Below, piece after piece: positions 1,052-37,502 of a stretch of 37,945 nucleotides of DNA. The stretch spans positions 1 to 37,945 of the forward strand of contig JALWLL010000090.1 in NCBI GenBank assembly GCA_026996295.1, given 5' to 3'. Positions within the stretch are counted from its first letter, which is position 1. Each line of letters begins with the position of its first letter. The notes beneath the pieces are model-generated. The model saw only the letters and a list, made by a program, of their open reading frames with translations. It did not search any database and was not told the origin of the DNA. This DNA is from Sulfurimonas sp. (GTDB taxonomy: Bacteria; Campylobacterota; Campylobacteria; Campylobacterales; Sulfurimonadaceae). Position numbers and translations under genes: made by a program.

Positions 1052-4000
1052 ATGAAAAAAGATTTTTCCATTGTAAACTTTTTACTTGGCAGACCCTATT
1101 TTATATTTTCATTTTTGACACTCTTTTTGTTTTTAGGAGCAGTAGGTTACAATCAAATCGACAGAAAATTGTTTCCGGATTCTAATTATCCCACAGTTGC
1201 GGTTGTAGTTGTTCAGCCTGGTGCTTCGGCAAAGAGTATTGCTACGAATGTATCTATTCCCGTAGAGGAGGAGCTTTACACTTTAGATAAGATCAGAAGA
1301 GTGTACTCCACTACTATCGATGAAGTAAGTGTCATCAATGCGGAATTTGATTATGCAAAAAATATTGATGCAGCTACAAGTGATGTCAGTAATTCCCTTG
1401 ATAAGATAAAATCAAAACTGCCAGACTCAATACTAGCTCCGCAAATCATAAAAATAACAGCGGCAACTGCACCTATTGTTACATATGCCATAAGCTCTAA
1501 AGATGGTGCTATATCTTTAGAAGATATTAGACAGCTTGCTTCAACAAAGATAAAACATGACATCATAAGACTAGAGGGTATTGCAGGTGTGGATATCTTT
1601 GGTGGGTATGAAAAAGAGATAGAGGTTATTGTCGATAAGGATAAACTAGATAAGTATAATCTTGATATAGCAACTGTTGTAGCAAAATTAAAAGCAAATG
1701 ACAACGATTTTGCCATAGGTTTTATAACAAGCCAAAACAGTAGGTATCTTCTCAAATCAAAAGGTAAAAAGGATACTATCTCCAAACTAAAATCGATCAG
1801 TATTACAAAAGATATAGAGTTGAAAGATATTGCAAAAGTATATTTTGGGCACTATGACAACTCTGCTGAGTATTATGGAAACTCTAAACATGCAATCGCA
1901 CTTGCCGTTCAAAGAGCTGAAAATGCTGATGTTGTTAAGAGTATTGATCTCGTTCAAAAAGAGATAGACAAGCTAAAGCAAAAATATAAAAATTTAGAGT
2001 TTACCATTACAGATACACAAAAAGACACCATTGTTCAAAGTACTGACAATATGTTTGAATCTTTAAGAGATGCTATCGTTATGTCAACCATAGTGGTGTT
2101 TTTCTTTTTAGCATCTTTTAGACAGGTGTTAGTTGTTCTTGTAACAATTCCTCTTGTATATGCAACAACGGTAGCATTGATGTGGATTGTTGGAATTGAG
2201 TTTAATGTTGTAACGTTAACAGCGATAATTTTGGCACTTGGACTCTTGCTCGATGATGCTGTTGTTGTTATGGAAAATATAGAGCGACACTATCGAGAAC
2301 TTCATGATGAGATACATAAAGCTGTTTATAACGGTACAAAAGAGATAATGTTTGCTGACCTTAGTGGAACAATAACAACTATGATAGCACTCTCGCCAAT
2401 GCTCTTTGTCGGTGGTTACCCACAAACTATATTTCAACCGCTTGTTGGAACGCTTCTGCTTGCACTTGCTGCTTCATATGTGATTTCGATAACGGCAGTG
2501 CCTTTGTTATCATTAAAAATTCTTACCATTAAATCTCCATTTATTTTAAAAAGTGAAGCTCTTTTTGAGAAGTTTGTTGGAGGGTTTAGTAGCTCTATCG
2601 CTAACTTTTTTGCAAGTGCTGTTGCTTTGGCCATTAAGAGAAAAAGCGTTGCGTTTAGCTACATCGCGGTGTTGATATTTTTATTTGTGACAAGTGTAAA
2701 AGGTGTTATGCCAACTGTTGGTCAAGAGTTAATGCCGCCTATGGATACCGGTGGTGCTAAAATCAGTATAACGGTTGATCCAAACTTACCTATTGAAGCG
2801 AGTAAAAAGATAGTACAAGAAGCAAATAAAATTATAAGCGAAGAGGGAGAACTGTTATATCTCTCAAGTGCTATCGGCAGTGAAGCAGGTATTATGAGTA
2901 TAGGAAGTGGGAGCGGGATCGATCATATCAGTATAACTGCAACCTATATCGATAGATACCATAGAGATGAAACGATATGGGAAATAGAGAAAAGATTACG
3001 AGAAAAATTAAATAAAATCAAAAATGTTCACAGTGTGGATGTTGTCGATTATGGTGCAACAGCACTTGCAAGTTTACGAGCCAACATCGATGTGACTCTT
3101 TACAGTGATGATTTGAAAAACCTGCAACAAGCTGGCGATATGGTAGCTGATGCGATGCAGCAAACCGGTGGAGTTGTCTCTGTCTCAAAAACATGGCAAA
3201 ACAATAAAAAGGTATATGAGTTTGAGATAGATGAGAAAAAAGCAGCCTACTACGGTCTGAGTAATGAAGATATATCAAAACAGCTTCAAACATTTGTAAG
3301 AGGGGCTAAAGCAGCATCTTTTTATCTGCAAAACAGTACAGATTTCGGTATAAGAGTTTGGGTAGATGAAGATAAAAGGGATAATATTGAGAGCTTAAAA
3401 TCATACCTCATAAGTACCAAAAAAGGGAAAGTTCCATTAAGTGATATGATAACTCTAAAATTTATTAATGAGCCTTCACTCATCACAAGAGAGGGTTTAC
3501 AATATACCTTGAATGTTTATGGTTTTAGAGAAAAAGCAGCCATTTCACATATTATGAGTAACTTTGAGGAGGCTTTTAAAGGAAAGGTACTTCCAGAAGG
3601 TGTTGAGATGGAGCAAACAGGTGATATAAAACAGTTTAAAAGTGCAGCCGGCAGGATGATAGGAGCAATCGGCTTTGCCGTTGTACTTATATTTTTTACA
3701 CTGATTGCCCTGTTTAACTCCGTAAAGATATCTTTAATGATAATCTTATCTATCCCTTTGACTATAATAGGGGCTTCGTGGATGATGCTTCTTATGTACT
3801 ATCATACATCTATGCCGGCGATGATGGGTTTTATACTTCTAAGTGGTATTATTGTAAATAATGCGATTTTACTTATACATTTTGCCATAGAGAAGATGCA
3901 GGCGGGACTTAGTAAAAGTGAGGCAATGATTGAGAGTATCAAAATTAGAACAAGACCGGTTTTGATGACAGCTTTTGCTACTTCAGCAGGGATGCTGCCG

Positions 4001-4144
4001 GTTGCACTTGGTTCTGCAATAGGGCTAGAGAGACTAGCTCCTCTTGGCGCAGTTGCAATCGGTGGTTTGATTGTTGGAACATTTTTAACACTTTTATTTA
4101 TACCTCTTGTGTTTATTTGGAGTATAAAAAAGGAGGATGTATAA
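1052..4144 (+). CDS. RND efflux pump inner-membrane permease (AcrB/MexB-like, HAE family)
   Basis: Proton-driven inner-membrane transporter of 1030 residues, the usual length for the AcrB superfamily. It shows an N-terminal membrane helix (about 12-32), a large periplasmic loop, a block of helices (about 335-490), a second periplasmic loop and a C-terminal helix block (about 875-1025). The proton-relay pair in helix 4 is D401-D402, inside GLLLDDAVVVMENIERH. The helix-10 relay position occupied by Lys in AcrB is Asn here (VNNAILL, about 936), as in many HAE-type pumps. Together with the upstream adaptor it forms a two-gene unit; no TolC-like channel gene is inside the window. It ends 7 bases from the convergent rseP stop. 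Drug, solvent or metabolite export cannot be distinguished. Confidence 0.95.
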   Translation: MKKDFSIVNFLLGRPYFIFSFLTLFLFLGAVGYNQIDRKLFPDSNYPTVAVVVVQPGASAKSIATNVSIPVEEELYTLDKIRRVYSTTIDEVSVINAEFDYAKNIDAATSDVSNSLDKIKSKLPDSILAPQIIKITAATAPIVTYAISSKDGAISLEDIRQLASTKIKHDIIRLEGIAGVDIFGGYEKEIEVIVDKDKLDKYNLDIATVVAKLKANDNDFAIGFITSQNSRYLLKSKGKKDTISKLKSISITKDIELKDIAKVYFGHYDNSAEYYGNSKHAIALAVQRAENADVVKSIDLVQKEIDKLKQKYKNLEFTITDTQKDTIVQSTDNMFESLRDAIVMSTIVVFFFLASFRQVLVVLVTIPLVYATTVALMWIVGIEFNVVTLTAIILALGLLLDDAVVVMENIERHYRELHDEIHKAVYNGTKEIMFADLSGTITTMIALSPMLFVGGYPQTIFQPLVGTLLLALAASYVISITAVPLLSLKILTIKSPFILKSEALFEKFVGGFSSSIANFFASAVALAIKRKSVAFSYIAVLIFLFVTSVKGVMPTVGQELMPPMDTGGAKISITVDPNLPIEASKKIVQEANKIISEEGELLYLSSAIGSEAGIMSIGSGSGIDHISITATYIDRYHRDETIWEIEKRLREKLNKIKNVHSVDVVDYGATALASLRANIDVTLYSDDLKNLQQAGDMVADAMQQTGGVVSVSKTWQNNKKVYEFEIDEKKAAYYGLSNEDISKQLQTFVRGAKAASFYLQNSTDFGIRVWVDEDKRDNIESLKSYLISTKKGKVPLSDMITLKFINEPSLITREGLQYTLNVYGFREKAAISHIMSNFEEAFKGKVLPEGVEMEQTGDIKQFKSAAGRMIGAIGFAVVLIFFTLIALFNSVKISLMIILSIPLTIIGASWMMLLMYYHTSMPAMMGFILLSGIIVNNAILLIHFAIEKMQAGLSKSEAMIESIKIRTRPVLMTAFATSAGMLPVALGSAIGLERLAPLGAVAIGGLIVGTFLTLLFIPLVFIWSIKKEDV

Positions 4145-4151
4145 GATATAA

Positions 4152-5204
4152 CTAGTTCATCAATCTATTTATATCGTTATAGAGTCCCAGTCCCATAAGT
4201 GAAAAAAGTATCACCCATCCCGCAATGGTGAGTTTGATAATGATCGCCTCACTCGGGGCTCTTCTGGCAATCATCTCATAAAGGTTAAACATAATGTGCC
4301 CACCATCAAGTGCAGGGATAGGAAGCAGGTTAAGCACCCCAAGATTTACAGATATAAGAGCTGCAAAAAAGAGCACTGCCATCCATCCTGCATCGGTTGC
4401 ATCGGAAGTAAGTTTCACTATACTTATGACACCTCCAAGCTCTTGAGCAGGAACCTCTCCAAAGAGTAGTTTTTTAACACCTGTAAAGATAACCGTTGAT
4501 GCAAAAACAGTTTGTTCAGTTGCATAGGAGAGGGTGTTTGCAAGTGTAAGATCGAGCTTGTGCGTAACTCCTGCACTACCGATACCTATCATCTTCTTAT
4601 GCACCACCTCATTGTACATATTGGTTGTTTGAGTGATTTTTGGAGTAAGTGTTTTGTATTCTAAAAACCCGTTACGCTCTATCTCAAGTTGAAGAGGACC
4701 CTTTGATTCGGAGATGATGTGTGCCATCTCTTTCCATGTTGTGATCTCTGTGCCGTTTATTGAGCGTATGGTGTCATTGCTCTCAAGCCCCGCAATATAT
4801 GCAGGGGAGTCTTTGACGACGTTGCCAATGACAGGAGAAAGGATGTTTGGTCCACCAAGAGCAATAAGGAAGTATAAAATAAATGCAAGTATAAAGTTTG
4901 CAGCAGGACCGGCTAAAAGTATAAATATTTTCTGCAGAGGTGTTTTTACATTGTAACTATCAGGATCAAAACTTTTTTTGCTTGGGTCACTGTCGTCTTG
5001 ACCTTTCATCTTGACATAACCGCCAAGGGGGATCATAGAGATCTTCCACTCTGTACCCCACTTCTTAAAAGAGGCAACTTTACTTCCAAACCCAATACTG
5101 AATGTCTCGACATATACACCCATTAGTCTAGCAGCCATATAATGCCCCAATTCATGAAAAAAAATAAGTGCAGATAAAACTGCGAGCGATACTATCCAGC
5201 TCAT
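4152..5204 (-). CDS. rseP: RIP metalloprotease RseP (site-2 protease family, M50)
   Basis: Intramembrane zinc protease of 350 residues that cuts transmembrane anti-sigma factors or signal-peptide remnants within the inner membrane. The zinc motif HELGH is at 17-21 in the first helix; the third ligand is in PALDGGH (D300). A PDZ domain lies between them (about 110-190, GLESNDTIRSINGTEI). The last two helices are hydrophobic as expected. The start codon overlaps the end of pgsA by four bases (ATGA), so the two genes are translationally linked. The actual substrate in this organism is unknown; no anti-sigma factor gene is in the window. Confidence 0.95.
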   Translation of the reverse strand: MSWIVSLAVLSALIFFHELGHYMAARLMGVYVETFSIGFGSKVASFKKWGTEWKISMIPLGGYVKMKGQDDSDPSKKSFDPDSYNVKTPLQKIFILLAGPAANFILAFILYFLIALGGPNILSPVIGNVVKDSPAYIAGLESNDTIRSINGTEITTWKEMAHIISESKGPLQLEIERNGFLEYKTLTPKITQTTNMYNEVVHKKMIGIGSAGVTHKLDLTLANTLSYATEQTVFASTVIFTGVKKLLFGEVPAQELGGVISIVKLTSDATDAGWMAVLFFAALISVNLGVLNLLPIPALDGGHIMFNLYEMIARRAPSEAIIIKLTIAGWVILFSLMGLGLYNDINRLMN

Positions 5205-32145: not shown

Positions 32146-32979
32146 ATGAAATCAAGTGGTAAAACAATACAAATTTACCTTCCAGATGGAAATCCTCGTG
32201 GCTTAAAAATAGCAGAAATAACAAGTAGGACTATTCAAGCTATTTTATTGCCTCGATCAATTTTAGATGAAGCTTCAAAAAGAGATGAGCTAAATAATGT
32301 TGGTATTTATTTATTATTTGGCATTAATGATTCCAAATCTCAAGTTTATATAGGTGAAGCAGAAAATTGTTTATCAAGATTGAAGCAGCATAATAAAACA
32401 AAAGATTTTTGGACTCATGTGCTTGTTTTTATATCAAAGACACAATTTTTTACAAAAACCCATATTAAATTTTTAGAATGGCTTTCTTATGAGCAAGCTC
32501 ATAAATCAAATAGATTTCTACTAGAAAATAGTAATATACCTACAAAACCATATATATCAGAATCAGTTGAGTCAGATTTATATGATAATTTTGAAACCAT
32601 ACAAATTTTAGCCTCCACACTAGGATACCCCGTATTTGACATAATTAAAAAACCGACAAAAAAAGAAATTATTGAATGTAAAGGTAAATTAGCTTCAGCA
32701 AAAGGTGAATATACAGAAGATGGTTTAATTATTTTTAAGGGCTCAACTTGTAATTTAGAAGAGACCAAAACAGCTGGAGATTGGGTTATCAATAAAAGAA
32801 AGGAATTGGTTGGTAAAAAAGTTTTAATCAAAAAAGATGATATATACGAATTTACAACCGACTATGTTTTTTCCTCACCAAGTGCAGCAGCCGCGGTAGT
32901 ATTAGCAAGAAGTGCAAATGGATGGATAGAGTGGAAATACCAAAATGGTAAAACATTAGACGAAGTAAAAAGACAATAA
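32146..32979 (+). CDS. GIY-YIG nuclease-fold protein with C-terminal DUF4357
   Basis: 277 residues. The GIY-YIG-like core is about 50-100: VGIYLLFG, then QVYIGEAENCLSRLKQHNKTKDFW, with the R (SRLKQH) in its normal place. The C-terminal ~80 residues (GDWVINKRKELV ... SANGWIEWKYQNGKTLDEVKR) match DUF4357, a domain often linked to restriction-modification or phage-related genes. A good AAGGAG site precedes the ATG. The coding sequence is clearly more A+T-rich than its neighbours and uses more Asn/Lys/Ile codons, suggesting recent acquisition. The function is unknown; no methylase or other restriction gene is next to it. Confidence 0.85.
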   Translation: MKSSGKTIQIYLPDGNPRGLKIAEITSRTIQAILLPRSILDEASKRDELNNVGIYLLFGINDSKSQVYIGEAENCLSRLKQHNKTKDFWTHVLVFISKTQFFTKTHIKFLEWLSYEQAHKSNRFLLENSNIPTKPYISESVESDLYDNFETIQILASTLGYPVFDIIKKPTKKEIIECKGKLASAKGEYTEDGLIIFKGSTCNLEETKTAGDWVINKRKELVGKKVLIKKDDIYEFTTDYVFSSPSAAAAVVLARSANGWIEWKYQNGKTLDEVKRQ

Positions 32980-33067: not shown

Positions 33068-33277
33068 ATGAGAGAAGAATATGATTTTAGTAACTCCGTT
33101 ACAAACCCTTATGCAAAGCATGTAAAAAAGCAAATTTCAATTCGTATTGAAACAGATACTATTGACTACTTTAAAGAACTTGCTAAAGAAACGGGTATAT
33201 CTTATCAAAACCTTATAAATTCTTATTTAACAGAGTGTGCACATAAGCATCTAAAGCCTGAATTGAAGTGGGTATAA
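33068..33277 (+). CDS. BrnA/CopG-type antitoxin-like protein, apparently without its toxin
   Basis: 69-residue ribbon-helix-helix protein. The segment KKQISIRIETDTIDYFKELAKE gives the beta-strand and first helix, and TGISYQNLINSYLTECAHKH the second helix, as in BrnA-type antitoxins. An AAGGAG site lies eight bases upstream of the ATG. BrnA is normally preceded by a ~90-residue BrnT toxin gene; here only 88 bases separate it from the GIY-YIG gene and no toxin frame is visible. It may be an orphan regulator or the remnant of a toxin-antitoxin pair. Confidence 0.8.
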   Translation: MREEYDFSNSVTNPYAKHVKKQISIRIETDTIDYFKELAKETGISYQNLINSYLTECAHKHLKPELKWV

Positions 33278-33291
33278 TTTATAAAATTCAA

Positions 33292-33306
33292 ATAATTAAT
33301 AATTAT
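33292..33306. promoter_or_regulatory. Fur-family-like operator (putative Zur/Fur box) of the zinc operon
   Basis: ATAATTA-A-TAATTAT, a perfect 7-1-7 inverted repeat, the geometry of Fur/Zur boxes. It lies about 25-39 bases before the predicted transcription start, over the -35 region, so a bound repressor would block the promoter. Confidence 0.55.
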
Positions 33307-33315
33307 CATAACCTA

Positions 33316-33324
33316 TGCTATAAT
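33316..33324 (+). promoter_or_regulatory. Extended -10 promoter of the zinc operon
   Basis: TGCTATAAT: a perfect -10 hexamer with the TGn extension. The predicted start (about 33331) falls on the first ATGs of the gene, implying a leaderless or almost leaderless mRNA. Confidence 0.65.
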
Positions 33325-33329
33325 CTCAT

Positions 33330-33605
33330 ATGATGAAAGTTTGGTTGAGAAAATATTTTGCTATTGTTTTTGTACTGGCAACCCTTCTTGGAAGTCATCA
33401 TCATCATGATGATTTAAAACAGCATAGCGATTGTCAGATATGTACTGTTCAGTCAAGTTTGTCTCATGCAGACACTCCTGCTGATAGCTGCTATTTAAGT
33501 GATATTTCACCTTATTCAGAAGCAATACTAGGCTCCTTGGCAAACATCATCGTAAGCTCCAAACAGATCATATCTCATGCCAGAGCACCTCCAAAATACT
33601 CTTGA
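33330..33605 (+). CDS. Small exported His-rich protein, first gene of zinc operon (DUF2946-like)
   Basis: 91 residues: N-terminal signal or anchor (about 5-21), then GSHHHHDD (21-28), the Cys pair CQIC (35-38), further His (H33, H46) and Cys (C54), and a C-terminal RAPPKYS. The His/Cys content and the ARAPP ending recall DUF2946-type proteins, and the position before znuA/znuB-like genes suggests periplasmic zinc binding or delivery. Two ATGs stand in tandem (33330, 33333) with no Shine-Dalgarno site, since the promoter lies immediately upstream. The function is inferred from context only. Confidence 0.75.
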   Translation: MMKVWLRKYFAIVFVLATLLGSHHHHDDLKQHSDCQICTVQSSLSHADTPADSCYLSDISPYSEAILGSLANIIVSSKQIISHARAPPKYS

Positions 33606-33663
33606 TTTTATAAATATAAAAAAATAAACCATTATCAAAACACTAAAATACAAGAGGATAACT

Positions 33664-34908
33664 ATGTATAAAAAATTAGCATTATTCTCGTTTTTTGCCG
33701 CAGTTTCACTGATGGCAGAGAGTGAGATAGATACTTTAAAAACACAGTTGCAAGAGCAACAAACGATGACACAGCTTTTGCTTAAAAAGGTCAATGACTT
33801 AGAGAAAAAAGATGCACAAAAAGACAAAGAGACCCTTGAGGGTGCGTTTTTACAAAACACTTCAGCAAGCTTTTCTCAAAATGCGTATCTTCCAGATATT
33901 GCACTTGTTTTAAATATGTCGGCAGTTGGAAGGGATCTTTCAAATACTCAATATGAAAATTTTGCCATTCCCGGTTTCATAGATGCCACAGACGCAGAAC
34001 TACCCTTTAACAAAGATCGGGGTTTCAATCTCAACTATGCAGAAGTAGCGATGCACTCGGTAGTGGATCCCTATTTTGAGGTATATACTATTTTTCATTT
34101 GAAACGTACAGAGTTTGAGATAGGCGAAGCGTATGTTCTAACGACAAGTTTACCCGAAGGTTTACGCATAAAGGCAGGAAAGTTTAAAAGTAGTTTTGGA
34201 CGCATCAATGAAAAGCATCAACATTCTTGGAATTTCGATGAACAGCCCATAATCTATAAAGCGCTTTTTGGTCCTGATGCCATTAGCGATGCAGGTATCC
34301 AGCTACAGTGGGTAGCACCGACCGATACGTACACCATGGTAGGTGTTGAAGCGATGCAGGGCACAAACGAGAGAAGTTTTGGCGACATAGAAGAAAACAA
34401 CCTTTACACCGCTTATGTAAAATCAAGTCTTGATATAACGGATGATCTCTCTATTTTGGGTGGTGTGAGTTTGGCACACGGTAAAACCGCCACAAAAGAG
34501 CAGAGCGATGTGTATGGTGTTGATTTGACATTGAGAGAGCAGCTTGGAAGTTACAGTGCCCTTATTTGGCAGAGTGAATTTTTGCAGCGTAACAAAGGCA
34601 CAGGAGAAAAACAGTCGGGATTATATACAGAAGTGGTATATCAATATAACAAAAATTATAGCGGTGGTGTGAGGTATGAAAAAATCACTAAAAACCAAAC
34701 CGATTTAAGCATTTACAGTGGCATAGACACTGACAATTTACAAAAGTACACAGCGATGCTACAGTACAAACCTTTTGCTTTTTCTCGGCTGAGACTTGAG
34801 TACTCTTATGATGCAACAAAAATCATAGACGGACAAAGAACAGATATAAACACGGTGATATTATCACTCAATATTGCAGCGGGCGCACACGGTGCCCATG
34901 CTTATTAG
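33664..34908 (+). CDS. Putative outer-membrane beta-barrel protein (porin-like) of the zinc operon
   Basis: 414 residues with signal peptide (about 1-18, SLMAES), an N-terminal coiled coil (about 20-58, IDTLKTQLQEQQTMTQLLLK) and then alternating beta-strand sequence typical of a barrel, ending in an aromatic residue. The C-terminus reads GAHGAHAY, adding two His near the end. An AGAGGA site precedes the ATG. It is 58 bases after the His-rich gene and 10 bases before the znuA-like gene, so it probably passes zinc or another divalent metal through the outer membrane; this is inference. No TonB box is seen, so it is not a TonB-dependent receptor. Confidence 0.82.
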   Translation: MYKKLALFSFFAAVSLMAESEIDTLKTQLQEQQTMTQLLLKKVNDLEKKDAQKDKETLEGAFLQNTSASFSQNAYLPDIALVLNMSAVGRDLSNTQYENFAIPGFIDATDAELPFNKDRGFNLNYAEVAMHSVVDPYFEVYTIFHLKRTEFEIGEAYVLTTSLPEGLRIKAGKFKSSFGRINEKHQHSWNFDEQPIIYKALFGPDAISDAGIQLQWVAPTDTYTMVGVEAMQGTNERSFGDIEENNLYTAYVKSSLDITDDLSILGGVSLAHGKTATKEQSDVYGVDLTLREQLGSYSALIWQSEFLQRNKGTGEKQSGLYTEVVYQYNKNYSGGVRYEKITKNQTDLSIYSGIDTDNLQKYTAMLQYKPFAFSRLRLEYSYDATKIIDGQRTDINTVILSLNIAAGAHGAHAY

Positions 34909-34918
34909 GGAGAAGAAG

Positions 34919-35800
34919 ATGAAAAAAATACTCTGGGCTAGTTTAGTGCTTGCGAGTTCACTTTTTGCGACACTCAAAATAGATACGACATATGCAACTC
35001 TTGGCGCAGTGACACAAGAGGTAGGAGGAGACTTGGTGGAGGTTCATGTTCTTGGAAGCTCTAAGTATGATCCGCACTTTATTGTGCCAAAGCCCTCATT
35101 GCTTTCTAAGCTTCGCCGTGCAGATTTGCTTATCATCAACGGAGGAGGTTTGGAAGTTGGCTGGTTACCTCCACTCATCAGAAGCGCCAACAACAGAAAA
35201 ATCCAGCCCGGAGCAGAGGGTTTTTTAGATATGAGCCATTTTATTAAGATGATAGACAAACCGACCTCTGTTTCACGTGCTTTTGGAGATATCCATGCAC
35301 AGGGAAATCCTCACTATGTTACAGACCCGCATCAGGTGATCGTGATGGCAAAGGTTATAGCGAAGAAATTGGCACAGATCGATCCTTCACATACACAGAA
35401 CTATCAGCATAATTTAGAGAAGTTTCTAAAAAAATGGGAGGCTTACCTGAAAAAGTTTGATCTAAAAATGTCTCAGTGCACTACAAAAAAAGTGTTGCAA
35501 TACCATGAGCTCTATAACTACTTTCTCAAACGCTACGGCATTGTAAGTGTTGGCAATATTGAGCCGCTTCCGGGGATCACACCAAGTTCAAAACACACAC
35601 TCGAACTTATCGGCACAGTCAAAGAAAACGGTGTGAAAAAGATACTTCAAGATGTGTACCATGACAAAAAAGCTGCAGAGTTCATCGCCGCAAAAACGGG
35701 TGCAAAGGTGGTGGTAGTTCCTCATGATGTCGGCTCTGTGAAAGCAGCGGATACATTGGAGGATTTTTACAACACCATGGCGAAGAGCATATGCAACTAG
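34919..35800 (+). CDS. znuA: Metal ABC transporter substrate-binding protein, ZnuA-like (cluster A-I)
   Basis: Periplasmic binding protein of 293 residues with signal peptide (about 1-17). Metal ligands fit H53 (KYDPHFIVPK), H132 (QGNPHYVTDPHQ), H196 (LQYHELYNYF) and D270 (VVPHDVGS), the TroA/ZnuA set. The flexible His/Asp-rich loop common in ZnuA is absent. The ATG at 34919 has AGGGAG upstream and gives a normal signal peptide; an earlier in-frame start would overlap the porin gene. The end overlaps the permease gene by ten bases. Zinc is the likely metal; manganese or iron is possible. Confidence 0.92.
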   Translation: MKKILWASLVLASSLFATLKIDTTYATLGAVTQEVGGDLVEVHVLGSSKYDPHFIVPKPSLLSKLRRADLLIINGGGLEVGWLPPLIRSANNRKIQPGAEGFLDMSHFIKMIDKPTSVSRAFGDIHAQGNPHYVTDPHQVIVMAKVIAKKLAQIDPSHTQNYQHNLEKFLKKWEAYLKKFDLKMSQCTTKKVLQYHELYNYFLKRYGIVSVGNIEPLPGITPSSKHTLELIGTVKENGVKKILQDVYHDKKAAEFIAAKTGAKVVVVPHDVGSVKAADTLEDFYNTMAKSICN

Positions 35801-36540
35801 TAGAACTTTTATGGCCTGCCTTTGTGCTGGCTATTGTACTTGTTTATATTCATACCATTTTTGGTGTGGAGATCATCCGTCGCGGTGTGATCTTTACCGA
35901 CTTGGCGATAGGGCAGGTTGCAGCTGTGGGGATGGCTCTGAGTGTAGCATTTTTAGATGGTGCATACCAAACATCGCTTACGCTTTTGTTTGCTGTTAGT
36001 GCAGCGATCATCATCGCATGGGCTACAAAAAAAGTGAAAAATGTTGAGGCTTTCATAGGCTTGCTGTATGCGCTTGGTATCTCTGCGATCATGCTCGTTT
36101 TAGCTAAAAGTGCTGAGGGGATGGAGCTTTTTTCCAAGCTGAGTGCTGCAGATATCCTGTTTGTATCAGCAGATGAACTTTATAAAGATATGGCTATCTA
36201 TCTGCCCATCTCTTTGGTGATGTTCTTTGTGTATCCAAAGACAAAAGGGGTGCTCAAAGAGCTGATCTTTTTTATCATGCTTGCCCTTACTGTGACATCT
36301 TCCGTACAGTCTGCAGGGGTACTTGTAGTATTTGCTTTGCTTATTGCGCCCTCATATGCAGGCGTGATGCAAAAAAGATTTGATCCTCTTTATTTTGCAT
36401 GGATATTTGGTTCCTTGGCAATTATGGCGGCACTTTATGGTTCGTACACTTTTGATCTGCCTACGGGATACACCATTATTTTTGTGAGTGTGGCTGCTTC
36501 ACTGCTGTTTGTTGTTTATAAAAACATAAAAGCAAACTAA
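35791..36540 (+). CDS. znuB: Metal ABC transporter permease, ZnuB-like
   Basis: Inner-membrane permease of the zinc/manganese ABC family, 249 residues with seven or eight hydrophobic segments. The segment IRRGVIFTDLAIGQVAAVGMAL and the SVQSAGVLVVFALLIAPSYAG region are typical. It overlaps the binding-protein gene. The ATPase (ZnuC) gene that normally accompanies it is missing: the next gene is on the opposite strand and its stop overlaps this stop by four bases. Confidence 0.92.
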   Translation: MQLVELLWPAFVLAIVLVYIHTIFGVEIIRRGVIFTDLAIGQVAAVGMALSVAFLDGAYQTSLTLLFAVSAAIIIAWATKKVKNVEAFIGLLYALGISAIMLVLAKSAEGMELFSKLSAADILFVSADELYKDMAIYLPISLVMFFVYPKTKGVLKELIFFIMLALTVTSSVQSAGVLVVFALLIAPSYAGVMQKRFDPLYFAWIFGSLAIMAALYGSYTFDLPTGYTIIFVSVAASLLFVVYKNIKAN

Positions 36541-37502
36541 AGCATTTTATGTGCATCGTGAGCAAGTCGCATAACACCTACGGCATAGTTTGAAGAGTTG
36601 TTATACCGCATGATCTTTTTTGTATAGTCTCTGAGATATTTAAGCTCTGGTTTGTTTTTTGTAAAACAGTTGTACACTTTGCCGCTTTTACTTTTTTCAT
36701 ACACAAAGCTTGCATCCTCATTGTCAAACTCATACTGATACCAAGCAGACTCTATAGCTTGCATATCGGGTATTTTATCCCACTCCATAAGTTGTGTAAA
36801 GTTTGCTTTTTTATGTAAAAACTTACCTGCCGAGACTATGGCGTCTTGCATTTTTGTCAGATCGGCATATGCTCTTTTGTAGCCCTCTGCATAGATGAAG
36901 CTGTTTGGCATAAACTGAGGTATCCCAACTGCCCCTGCATAGGAGCTTGGAAGTATGCACTCCTCTATTTCTATGTTGTTTTTGTAGCAGTAGGTGATGA
37001 TGGAAGCCATATTTGTTTTCCCCATTTTCAGAAGCCATTTTTCTCTTGAGCTGTTGGGTTTGGTTCTAACAACAAGTGTGTTAAAGACTATAAAAGCATC
37101 ATGTGTCGGTTTGATCTTGCCTAGTTTTGTTTCTTTAAGAAGTATGGCGGCGATGATCTCGCGGTTCACACCGAACTTTTGTTCCGTGTAGTCGTACACC
37201 TCTTTGTACTTTTTGAGATGTTGTACCATTTGAGGAATGTATTTTACGAGAACATTGTTAGCTTTTTTTTCGTTTTCTCTATGTTTTTTGATATATCTTG
37301 GTTGGAGATATTTGTAACTCACCTCATCAAATTTTTTGGTTCTAAAGTATGAAAGTAAAAATTTATTGGCATACTCGTATGAAACTCCCTGTTTGACAAC
37401 TTTTTTACATATATCGCTGTAGTGTTCATTTTTAAAGTCGCAGTTAGTGTACTGTGCAAAAAGTATGGTGCTGATGAAAAGGGGTAGAAAGATCTTTATC
37501 AC
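36537..37502 (-). CDS. Lytic murein transglycosylase, MltB-type (GH103)
   Basis: Cleaves the glycan strands of peptidoglycan to 1,6-anhydro products in the periplasm. 321 residues with signal peptide (about 1-16). The catalytic glutamate is in AILLKETKLG (E at about 129) and the GH103 signature SYAGAVGIPQFMPNSF is complete. The C-terminal region (YAVGVMRLAH) closes the domain. The signal peptide ends FAQY with no cysteine lipobox, so it may be soluble. It lies downstream of the MurU-like gene by 51 bases. Confidence 0.92.
   Translation of the reverse strand: MIKIFLPLFISTILFAQYTNCDFKNEHYSDICKKVVKQGVSYEYANKFLLSYFRTKKFDEVSYKYLQPRYIKKHRENEKKANNVLVKYIPQMVQHLKKYKEVYDYTEQKFGVNREIIAAILLKETKLGKIKPTHDAFIVFNTLVVRTKPNSSREKWLLKMGKTNMASIITYCYKNNIEIEECILPSSYAGAVGIPQFMPNSFIYAEGYKRAYADLTKMQDAIVSAGKFLHKKANFTQLMEWDKIPDMQAIESAWYQYEFDNEDASFVYEKSKSGKVYNCFTKNKPELKYLRDYTKKIMRYNNSSNYAVGVMRLAHDAHKML

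Follow-up and report, generated by a model that had tools for sequence, protein, structure and literature searches.

We analyzed a 37,945 nt stretch of DNA from Sulfurimonas sp. (contig JALWLL010000090.1 of GenBank assembly GCA_026996295.1, positions 1 to 37,945 of the forward strand; referred to below as the window) and identified in it four open reading frames (ORFs) on one strand (+, positions 33330–36540) that encode a small leader protein, an outer-membrane β-barrel, a ZnuA-like binding protein, and an ABC-3-fold permease that we call perm2. These genes are a conserved unit under purifying selection, far beyond what would be expected by chance. Our preferred interpretation, to which we assign a probability of about 0.52, is that they constitute a metal-scarcity cassette that would supply a metal-controlled porin, a binding protein, and an ATP-independent permease, and that the metal is most likely zinc.

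A four-gene cassette conserved in Campylobacterota

The window belongs to a draft genome of 2.1 Mb in 119 contigs that is 100% complete. An initial annotation of this DNA had described an operon that encodes, in order, a His-rich small protein, a barrel, a ZnuA-like protein, and a ZnuB-like permease, and that is followed by a convergent gene. The ORFs at 33330–36540 occur in exactly this order, and the gene 3′ of perm2 (36537–37502) is convergent. We inferred that the cassette is an operon from the spacing of the genes and their common strand.

The initial annotation had also proposed that the co-occurrence of these genes be examined in other Campylobacterota, and we found the leader, the barrel, the ZnuA-like protein, and perm2 together across 54 Campylobacterota loci. 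This set consists of distinct perm2 sequences of at least 235 residues, from which shorter matches and exact copies were removed. Within the order, perm2-type proteins were found in 45 of 298 genomes, which we counted as cassette bearing if the match showed at least 40% identity over most of the query; canonical ABC-3 permeases match the same query at ~24%–34% identity. Two of the 45 genomes carry a damaged or partial copy (G106, in which the copy contains a stop, and G167, in which it is incomplete; handles beginning with G, C, and L denote our genomes, contigs, and loci), and fragments of perm2 alone are present in five more genomes (G006, G107, G152, G185, and G233). A profile built from 40 perm2 sequences gave matches with E ≤ 1e-25 in 50 of the 397 genomes of a phylum-wide sample, with at most six candidates scored per genome. 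All 50 of these genomes come from four families (f1, f4, f6, and f18), and the search of the 298 genomes gave no perm2 match better than 1e-5 in families f11 and f14.

The barrel gene is present in 53 of the 54 perm2 loci and the ZnuA-like gene in all 54. A leader profile recovered the first gene in 44 loci. Seven of the ten others reach the end of the fetched sequence no more than 145 nt from the first cassette gene, and inspection of the remaining three (L071, L088, and L094) revealed a diverged ORF at the leader position that ends in a PP motif. A leader is thus found in all 47 loci for which sequence is available at that position, 44 by profile and three by inspection; inspection also revealed a diverged leader in L095, which falls under the 235-residue length cut. 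The same gene order recurs in several families of the order, and the flanks vary, with no neighbor common to more than 8 of the 54 loci among the few neighbors that were identified. Pairwise identities of the four cassette genes correlate with one another (r = 0.67–0.88 over 44 loci), a correlation that shared descent explains in part, and the ratio of nonsynonymous to synonymous divergence (dN/dS) of perm2 is well under 1 in pairs for which dS could be computed (for the window and L053, dN is 0.10 and dS is 1.38).

A permease without the ATPase-coupling segment

The absence of ZnuC beside the permease, which had been seen initially in the window, proved to be general: none of the 52 loci (out of 54) with at least 1 kb of downstream sequence has a ZnuC-type ATPase gene adjoining perm2, and in the window ABC ATPase motifs were flagged in none of the ORFs that neighbor the cassette. 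Five ABC ATPases are encoded elsewhere in the fetched stretches, four of them 2–6.5 kb away and one 337 nt downstream in L091; because the best match of the latter is MlaF and an MlaD gene comes next, we regard it as part of another system. The initial annotation had proposed a search for an orphan znuC. We rejected an orphan znuC as the explanation, since the host genome holds a complete canonical znuA-znuC-znuB set at G000:C95 (L052:6208–8720). The third ABC-3-family match in this genome (L099, at G000:C53) resembles, as judged by eye, a BtuC-type permease that lies in a cobalamin uptake cluster together with an ATPase, a binding protein, and a TonB receptor.

Perm2 (35791–36540, + strand; 249 residues) matches PF00950 with 46 bits (cut-off 20.1), and its AlphaFold2 (AF2) model has a predicted local distance difference test score (pLDDT) of 91. 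Among solved structures PsaB is the closest (Z 24.2, root-mean-square deviation 3.6, 245 residues aligned), and the fold is full length. We aligned the 54 perm2 sequences with 21 canonical permeases from cassette genomes, E. coli ZnuB, a Vibrio protein that is described below, and the BtuC-like permease of the host itself. The region that couples the permease to its ATPase comprises 43 residues in all 22 canonical sequences (the 21 permeases and E. coli ZnuB) and in the BtuC-like permease, and 28 residues in 52 of the 54 perm2 proteins (25 and 29 in the other two), so that perm2 has a deletion of 15 residues relative to both kinds of permease. The perm2 profile aligned to PsaB with E 8e-4 and to ZnuB of E. 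coli with E 4e-8, and in both of these proteins an insertion of ~14 residues falls at the same point, and in the AF2 model the predicted helices 127–150 and 153–175 are separated by two residues at the site of the deletion. In this family the deleted segment is established as the coupling helix (the L-loop in BtuC-type permeases). Coupling helices have been identified as allosteric hotspots between both domains of PsaBC and MntBC (PMC11779740). Judged from the alignment, the ATPase-free state of perm2 looks built in, with the coupling segment gone. The initial description of a ZnuB-like protein without an ATPase therefore stands as far as the adjoining gene is concerned, but it had missed the loss of the coupling segment from the permease itself.

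The permeation path is also altered. In MntBC, Asp47, His51, and Asp94 of this path are essential (PMC8487065), and we placed the Asp-His-Asp triad on perm2 by motif, MntC itself lying outside the alignment. The His of the triad is present in all 22 canonical sequences and is replaced in perm2 by Gln (53 of 54) or Ser (1 of 54), and the second Asp, again found in 22 of 22 canonical sequences, is Glu in every perm2 protein. At the position of the first Asp all 54 have Leu, with an invariant Asp one residue earlier. Four other residues, H21, E112, D121, and D222, are newly invariant in perm2. In a phylogenetic tree the perm2 proteins fell on one side of a branch with support of 97/92, and together with the Vibrio protein with support of 100/97; long branches were flagged in this tree.

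The second gene of the cassette (33664–34908, + strand) encodes a 414-residue protein that reached no Pfam family cut-off. Its AF2 model (pLDDT 86) consists of a long N-terminal helix, which is probably a coiled coil, and a β-barrel of porin fold, for which Foldseek returned the porins VhChiP, MOMP, OmpT, and DcaP (best E 8e-12; target-normalized template modeling score ~0.5–0.65). Five His residues (H145, H185, H187, H409, and H412) are invariant in 43 barrel sequences. The porin fold and these residues support the initial suggestion that the cassette has its own outer-membrane barrel, and it is reasonable to infer that the barrel may form a metal-selective pore. The third gene (34919–35800, + strand; 293 residues) encodes a ZnuA-like (cluster A-I) metal-binding protein that matches PF01297 with E 3e-46 and 158 bits (cut-off 29) and contains the conserved motifs DPH, GNPH, Q(Y/F)H, and PHD. 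As the initial annotation had observed, this protein lacks the His-rich loop that is usual in ZnuA: by eye, a short GDxH..GNPH loop takes its place, and the ZnuA encoded at C95 has the His-rich loop.

The leader and its junction with the barrel gene

The leader ORF (33330–33605, + strand) encodes 91 residues that include the HHHHDD stretch and the CxxC pair (CQIC) of the initial annotation and end in RAPPKYS, and we regard its product as a putative metal-sensing arrest peptide of the CruR/CutF type. The published model for such a protein is CruR of Bordetella, a DUF2946 leader in which the CxxC motif senses copper and a C-terminal RAPP motif is required for downstream expression; the RAPP motif lies three residues from the end of CruR, the distance from CxxC to RAPP is 45 residues (±1–2 across the family), and its authors considered the protein to be short lived and probably without any additional role (PMC9426467). 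Arrest at the CruR sequence has been demonstrated in vitro, RAPP, RSPP, RDPP, QAPP, and HAPP all occur among arrest peptides or arrest-permissive variants, and RAPP-like arrest takes place with the codon of the third residue in the P site (PMC12992588, PMC10987492). The leader of the window gave E 0.0014 and 19.9 bits against PF11162 (DUF2946), which is under the cut-off of 23.7, and for this reason we do not file it as a DUF2946 member.

The 44 leaders recovered by profile share this anatomy. CxxC is present in 43 of them, and the CxxC-to-RAPP spacing is 44–46 residues in 42 and 43 residues in one. The motif at the end is RAPP in 25 leaders, RSPP in 7, QAPP in 4, HAPP in 3, NAPP in 3, APPP in 1, and RDPP in 1, so that 40 of the 44 have one of the sequences RAPP, RSPP, QAPP, HAPP, or RDPP; exactly three residues follow PP in 33. 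All 44 leaders, but only 2 of the 433 other ORFs encoded at these loci, have a PP within the last ten residues. The N-terminus is hydrophobic, the sequence between the motifs is poorly conserved, and conserved His and Asp residues occur in addition to CxxC.

A promoter-like sequence stands unusually close to the leader. In the window, a TATAAT hexamer (33319–33324, + strand) that resembles a −10 element, and that we predict to be the promoter of a leaderless mRNA, ends 5 nt before the leader ATG. Hexamers that match this element in at least five of six positions end 5–9 nt before the ATG of 30 of the 44 leaders, compared with 20 of 211 other ATG-initiated ORFs of the same loci, which served as controls; where two ATGs were possible, the better one was taken. 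In four of the other leaders the hexamer lies 11–12 nt from the ATG and in ten there is none, and L073, L074, L076, and L078 have a Shine-Dalgarno (SD)-like stretch before the leader instead of the hexamer. Given this proximity, transcription probably starts at or close to the leader ATG in the majority of loci.

The end of the leader gene can pair with the ribosome-binding site of the barrel gene. In the minimum free energy fold of the junction, and by complementarity, a 5′ arm formed by the last leader codon, the stop codon, and the next bases (33599–33610, + strand) pairs with a 3′ arm (33644–33656, + strand) that folds and a duplex test place over the barrel SD sequence. The leader and barrel genes are separated by 41–61 nt in 35 of 44 loci (range 31–143). 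We tested the pairing on 36 of the 44 junctions, having dropped L068, L069, L076, and L082 as near-duplicates and L075, L077, L081, and L093 for an uncertain barrel start. The mean arm duplex energy was −11.0 kcal/mol within loci and −7.5 kcal/mol when arms were combined across loci, and none of 20000 permutations was as good. The barrel SD was paired with the leader end with P > 0.5 in 35 of the 36 junctions, and its mean pairing probability was 0.91, compared with 0.59 when the leader arm was shuffled. Base changes in the hairpin are visibly compensatory between families. As related loci are not independent, these statistics overstate the evidence.

The initial annotation had suggested that the metal-capturing loop of ZnuA might have moved to a separate periplasmic protein, namely the leader product. 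The CxxC motif, the RAPP-like end, the spacing of 44–46 residues between them, and the position of the leader as first gene do not favor this suggestion, and neither does the ability of the end of the leader mRNA to mask the barrel SD sequence. On this sequence evidence, the small protein is probably an arrest peptide of the CruR/CutF type rather than a metal-capturing protein.

Proposed mechanism, alternatives, and the identity of the metal

We propose a mechanism in which stalling, the direction of regulation, transport, and its energy source are predictions. The first ORF would be translated, probably from a leaderless mRNA, and its product exported, and its RAPP-like motif would arrest translation immediately ahead of the stop codon. 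Stalled there, the ribosome would occupy the 5′ arm of the hairpin and leave the barrel SD sequence free, so that the barrel, the ZnuA-like protein, and the permease are made; a stalled ribosome has likewise been proposed to free the downstream ribosome-binding site in the case of CutF (PMC9973294). Binding of metal to the His and CxxC residues of the nascent chain would relieve the arrest, the hairpin would form, and translation would stop, a direction of control that we predict by analogy with CruR. The barrel would pass the metal into the periplasm, where the ZnuA-like protein would bind it and dock on perm2, and the ion would enter down the membrane potential or together with protons, without an ATPase.

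Each part of this scheme resembles a known system and departs from it. The cassette shares a ZnuA-like binding protein and a permease with the full-length PsaB fold with ZnuABC, PsaBCA, and MntBCA, but it has neither an adjoining ATPase gene nor the coupling segment, has Gln in place of the permeation-path His, and includes an outer-membrane barrel and a leader of its own. AztABCD, a zinc importer, includes an ATPase; among NCBIfam models its component AztC matches the ZnuA-like protein best, although the score of 106.7 bits is below the cut-off of 350. Like CruR in the bp2923-bfrG operon of Bordetella pertussis, the leader is the first gene of an import operon and has a CxxC motif, a RAPP motif three residues from the end, and a spacing of ~45 residues. 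It differs from CruR in scoring under the Pfam cut-off, in preceding genes for a porin, a ZnuA-like protein, and an ABC-3 permease instead of a TonB receptor and copper genes, and in having a short junction with an SD-masking hairpin, whereas the corresponding region of CruR is long and is subject to Rho-dependent termination. With CutF of the Rhodobacter capsulatus cutFOG operon the leader shares export, a proline-rich C-terminus, and a stem-loop that masks the next ribosome-binding site. Unlike CutF, it has a RAPP-like motif, it precedes uptake genes and not a multicopper oxidase gene, and its predicted direction of control is opposite, with metal switching expression off. BioY and BtuM have the S-component fold of energy-coupling factor (ECF) transporters and have no binding protein and no porin, unlike the cassette with its ABC-3 fold, binding protein, and porin. 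Perm2 nevertheless resembles them in being the membrane part of an importer type that is ATP driven, and transport without ATP has a precedent there, since solitary BioY and BtuM can work without an ATPase module (PMC11109136).

We considered two other explanations for the missing ATPase gene. The ZnuC of the canonical znuABC, which is encoded at an unlinked site, could energize perm2 in trans, and some ABC and ECF systems do share a single ATPase among several permeases. The host genome has a complete znuABC, a canonical ABC-3 permease is present in 44 of the 45 cassette genomes, and a ZnuC match was found in 42 of the 45, which were the genomes searched for ZnuC; the three without a match are 80%–89% complete. 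This co-occurrence says little, however, because strong ABC-3 matches (best E ≤ 3e-35) occur in 270 of the 298 genomes searched in the order, and lending of ZnuC is disfavored by the deletion of the very segment that would grip the ATPase (43 residues in 22 of 22 canonical sequences and 28 in 52 of 54 perm2 proteins). We consider such a borrowed motor quite improbable. Alternatively, perm2 could act in the membrane as a receptor for the ZnuA-like protein or as a platform on which it docks, serving in sensing or in a periplasmic metal store, with import left to ZnuABC. The loss of both the coupling segment and the permeation-path His would be expected of a receptor, as would the retention of the canonical importer, but the full-length permease fold and the new invariant residues H21, E112, D121, and D222 resemble a working ion path, and no cytoplasmic partner is evident, since no further gene is conserved beside perm2. 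A receptor role therefore seems improbable to us.

For ATP-independent import, the identity of the metal is the next question, and the best hint comes from a distant homolog. In a plasmid collection, one Vibrio record has the cassette: a replicon of Vibrio campbellii (L120) encodes a barrel, a ZnuA-like protein, and a perm2-like permease in the same order (profile E values of 4e-54, 2e-68, and 2e-33, respectively, among 118 ORFs searched), with no leader found and no ATPase flagged within 12.7 kb. The barrel ends in GAHGAHAF, much like the barrels of the cassette, and the permease has a coupling region of 24 residues and the same Gln and Glu changes, without His21, Glu112, and Asp121. Just upstream of the barrel gene are two sites that differ by one mismatch from what we take to be the Zur-box consensus, with 0.04 expected by chance; as a positive control, the pattern picked out a single site, between znuA and znuC, when applied to 6 kb of E. 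coli DNA. Two ORFs with ChrR cupin domains (PF12973; L120:2975–3627) are oriented divergently from the Vibrio promoter that bears these Zur-like sites. The metals handled by the ZnuA and ABC-3 families are Zn, Mn, and Fe. The host genome has only two Fur-family genes, which in NCBIfam score best against Fur and PerR, in each case under the cut-off. Taking together the families of the binding protein and permease, the Zur-like sites in Vibrio, the His and Asp residues of the leader, and the presence of only two Fur-family genes, we estimate a chance of about two in three that zinc is the metal.

A copper importer of the same architecture, with a CruR-type copper leader, is a competing reading. 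Most leaders of the CruR/CutF type with a Cys motif accompany copper genes (PMC9426467, PMC9973294), 43 of our 44 leaders retain CxxC, and in L077 a gene of the CusA/CzcA family of resistance-nodulation-division (RND) efflux proteins (1192–4239) ends 188 nt before the leader. We nonetheless regard copper as rather unlikely, given the metals handled by the ZnuA and ABC-3 families, the additional His and Asp of the leader, the Zur-box-like sites of the Vibrio homolog, and the lack, among the few neighbors identified, of any that is common to more than 8 of the 54 loci. Other members of the CusA/CzcA-family cluster were found in L057 and, 29 kb away from the cassette, in the window. A gene for a P-type ATPase of the calcium type lies beside the cassette in 6 of 54 loci (L050, L070, L085, L087, L089, and L090); the one member scanned scored below the cut-offs. 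The proposal of the initial annotation, by which the small protein would be a stable zinc chaperone of the periplasm that substitutes for the ZnuA His loop, accounts for the hydrophobic N-terminus of the protein and for its HHHHDD and CxxC motifs; a chaperone, however, has no need of a RAPP-like end at a fixed distance from CxxC or of a hairpin over the SD sequence, and the sequence between the leader motifs is poorly conserved. We judge this proposal very unlikely.

Several observations weigh against a zinc-controlled, ATP-independent import cassette. The leader falls under the Pfam cut-off for DUF2946, the leader of L091 has no CxxC and none is visible in that of L094, and among the RAPP-like sequences from E. 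coli and B. subtilis that have been assayed, the majority failed to arrest ribosomes efficiently (PMC10987492). In the window itself the barrel SD is paired with a probability of only 0.52, L090 is the junction in which the pairing fails, and a shuffled leader arm still gives a mean of 0.59. The first Asp of the permeation triad is variable in the canonical set as well (Asp or Glu in 11 of 22), and the frequency of canonical ABC-3 permeases and ZnuC among cassette genomes makes lending of the ATPase possible. The efflux gene in L077 fits copper as well as zinc, the known DUF2946 and CutF leaders are mostly copper linked, and simple scans show no conserved Fur- or Zur-like operator before the Campylobacterota leaders. 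Fur-box-like stretches were seen in a few loci (the window, L038, and L053); the AT-rich stretch near 33296–33320 of the window may be a Fur site or a chance resemblance.

A second pair of perm2 fragments in L075, a stop in L096, and a short remnant in L098 suggest that the cassette has been lost repeatedly. In Sulfurovum mangrovi the cassette is on a 395 kb plasmid (L121, NZ_CP087125.1), a possible route of spread, and this record is annotated with zinc ABC transporter genes and with hypothetical proteins at the barrel and leader positions. In the window, the cassette is immediately preceded by a small ORF (33068–33274) for an antitoxin of the ribbon-helix-helix/CopG or BrnA type (PF14384, 29.6 bits; PF12441, 29.1 bits; both above the cut-off), and just before it is a gene (32146–32979) for a protein with GIY-YIG and DUF4357 domains, which may have been inserted recently next to the cassette.

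On the evolutionary origin our view is tentative: an ABC-3 importer may have shed its ATPase and coupling helix to become a secondary transporter or gated channel that still depends on a binding protein and works with its own porin, with a zinc-sensing arrest leader in place of Zur in bacteria that lack Zur, and we rate this account as somewhat short of an even chance. Our literature search covered titles and abstract openings, with few subscription journals, and among the matches listed there was no such cassette, no ATPase-less ZnuB or coupling-helix-less ABC-3 permease, and no zinc-responsive DUF2946-like leader; the available part of one match (PMC10066037) names znuA once, within a list of gene names. 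According to the authors of the CruR study, no zinc riboswitch is known (PMC9426467).

The public labels of the Sulfurovum mangrovi proteins, "zinc ABC transporter substrate-binding protein" and "metal ABC transporter permease," are probably wrong as to mechanism. If the proposal is correct, the leader extends metal-responsive arrest peptides to a new set of genes and possibly to zinc. If perm2 transports without ATP, the cassette would be a natural experiment, in which an ABC permease has been uncoupled and yet keeps its binding protein, and the question of coupling would reduce to one segment of 15 residues that could be tested by graft or deletion.

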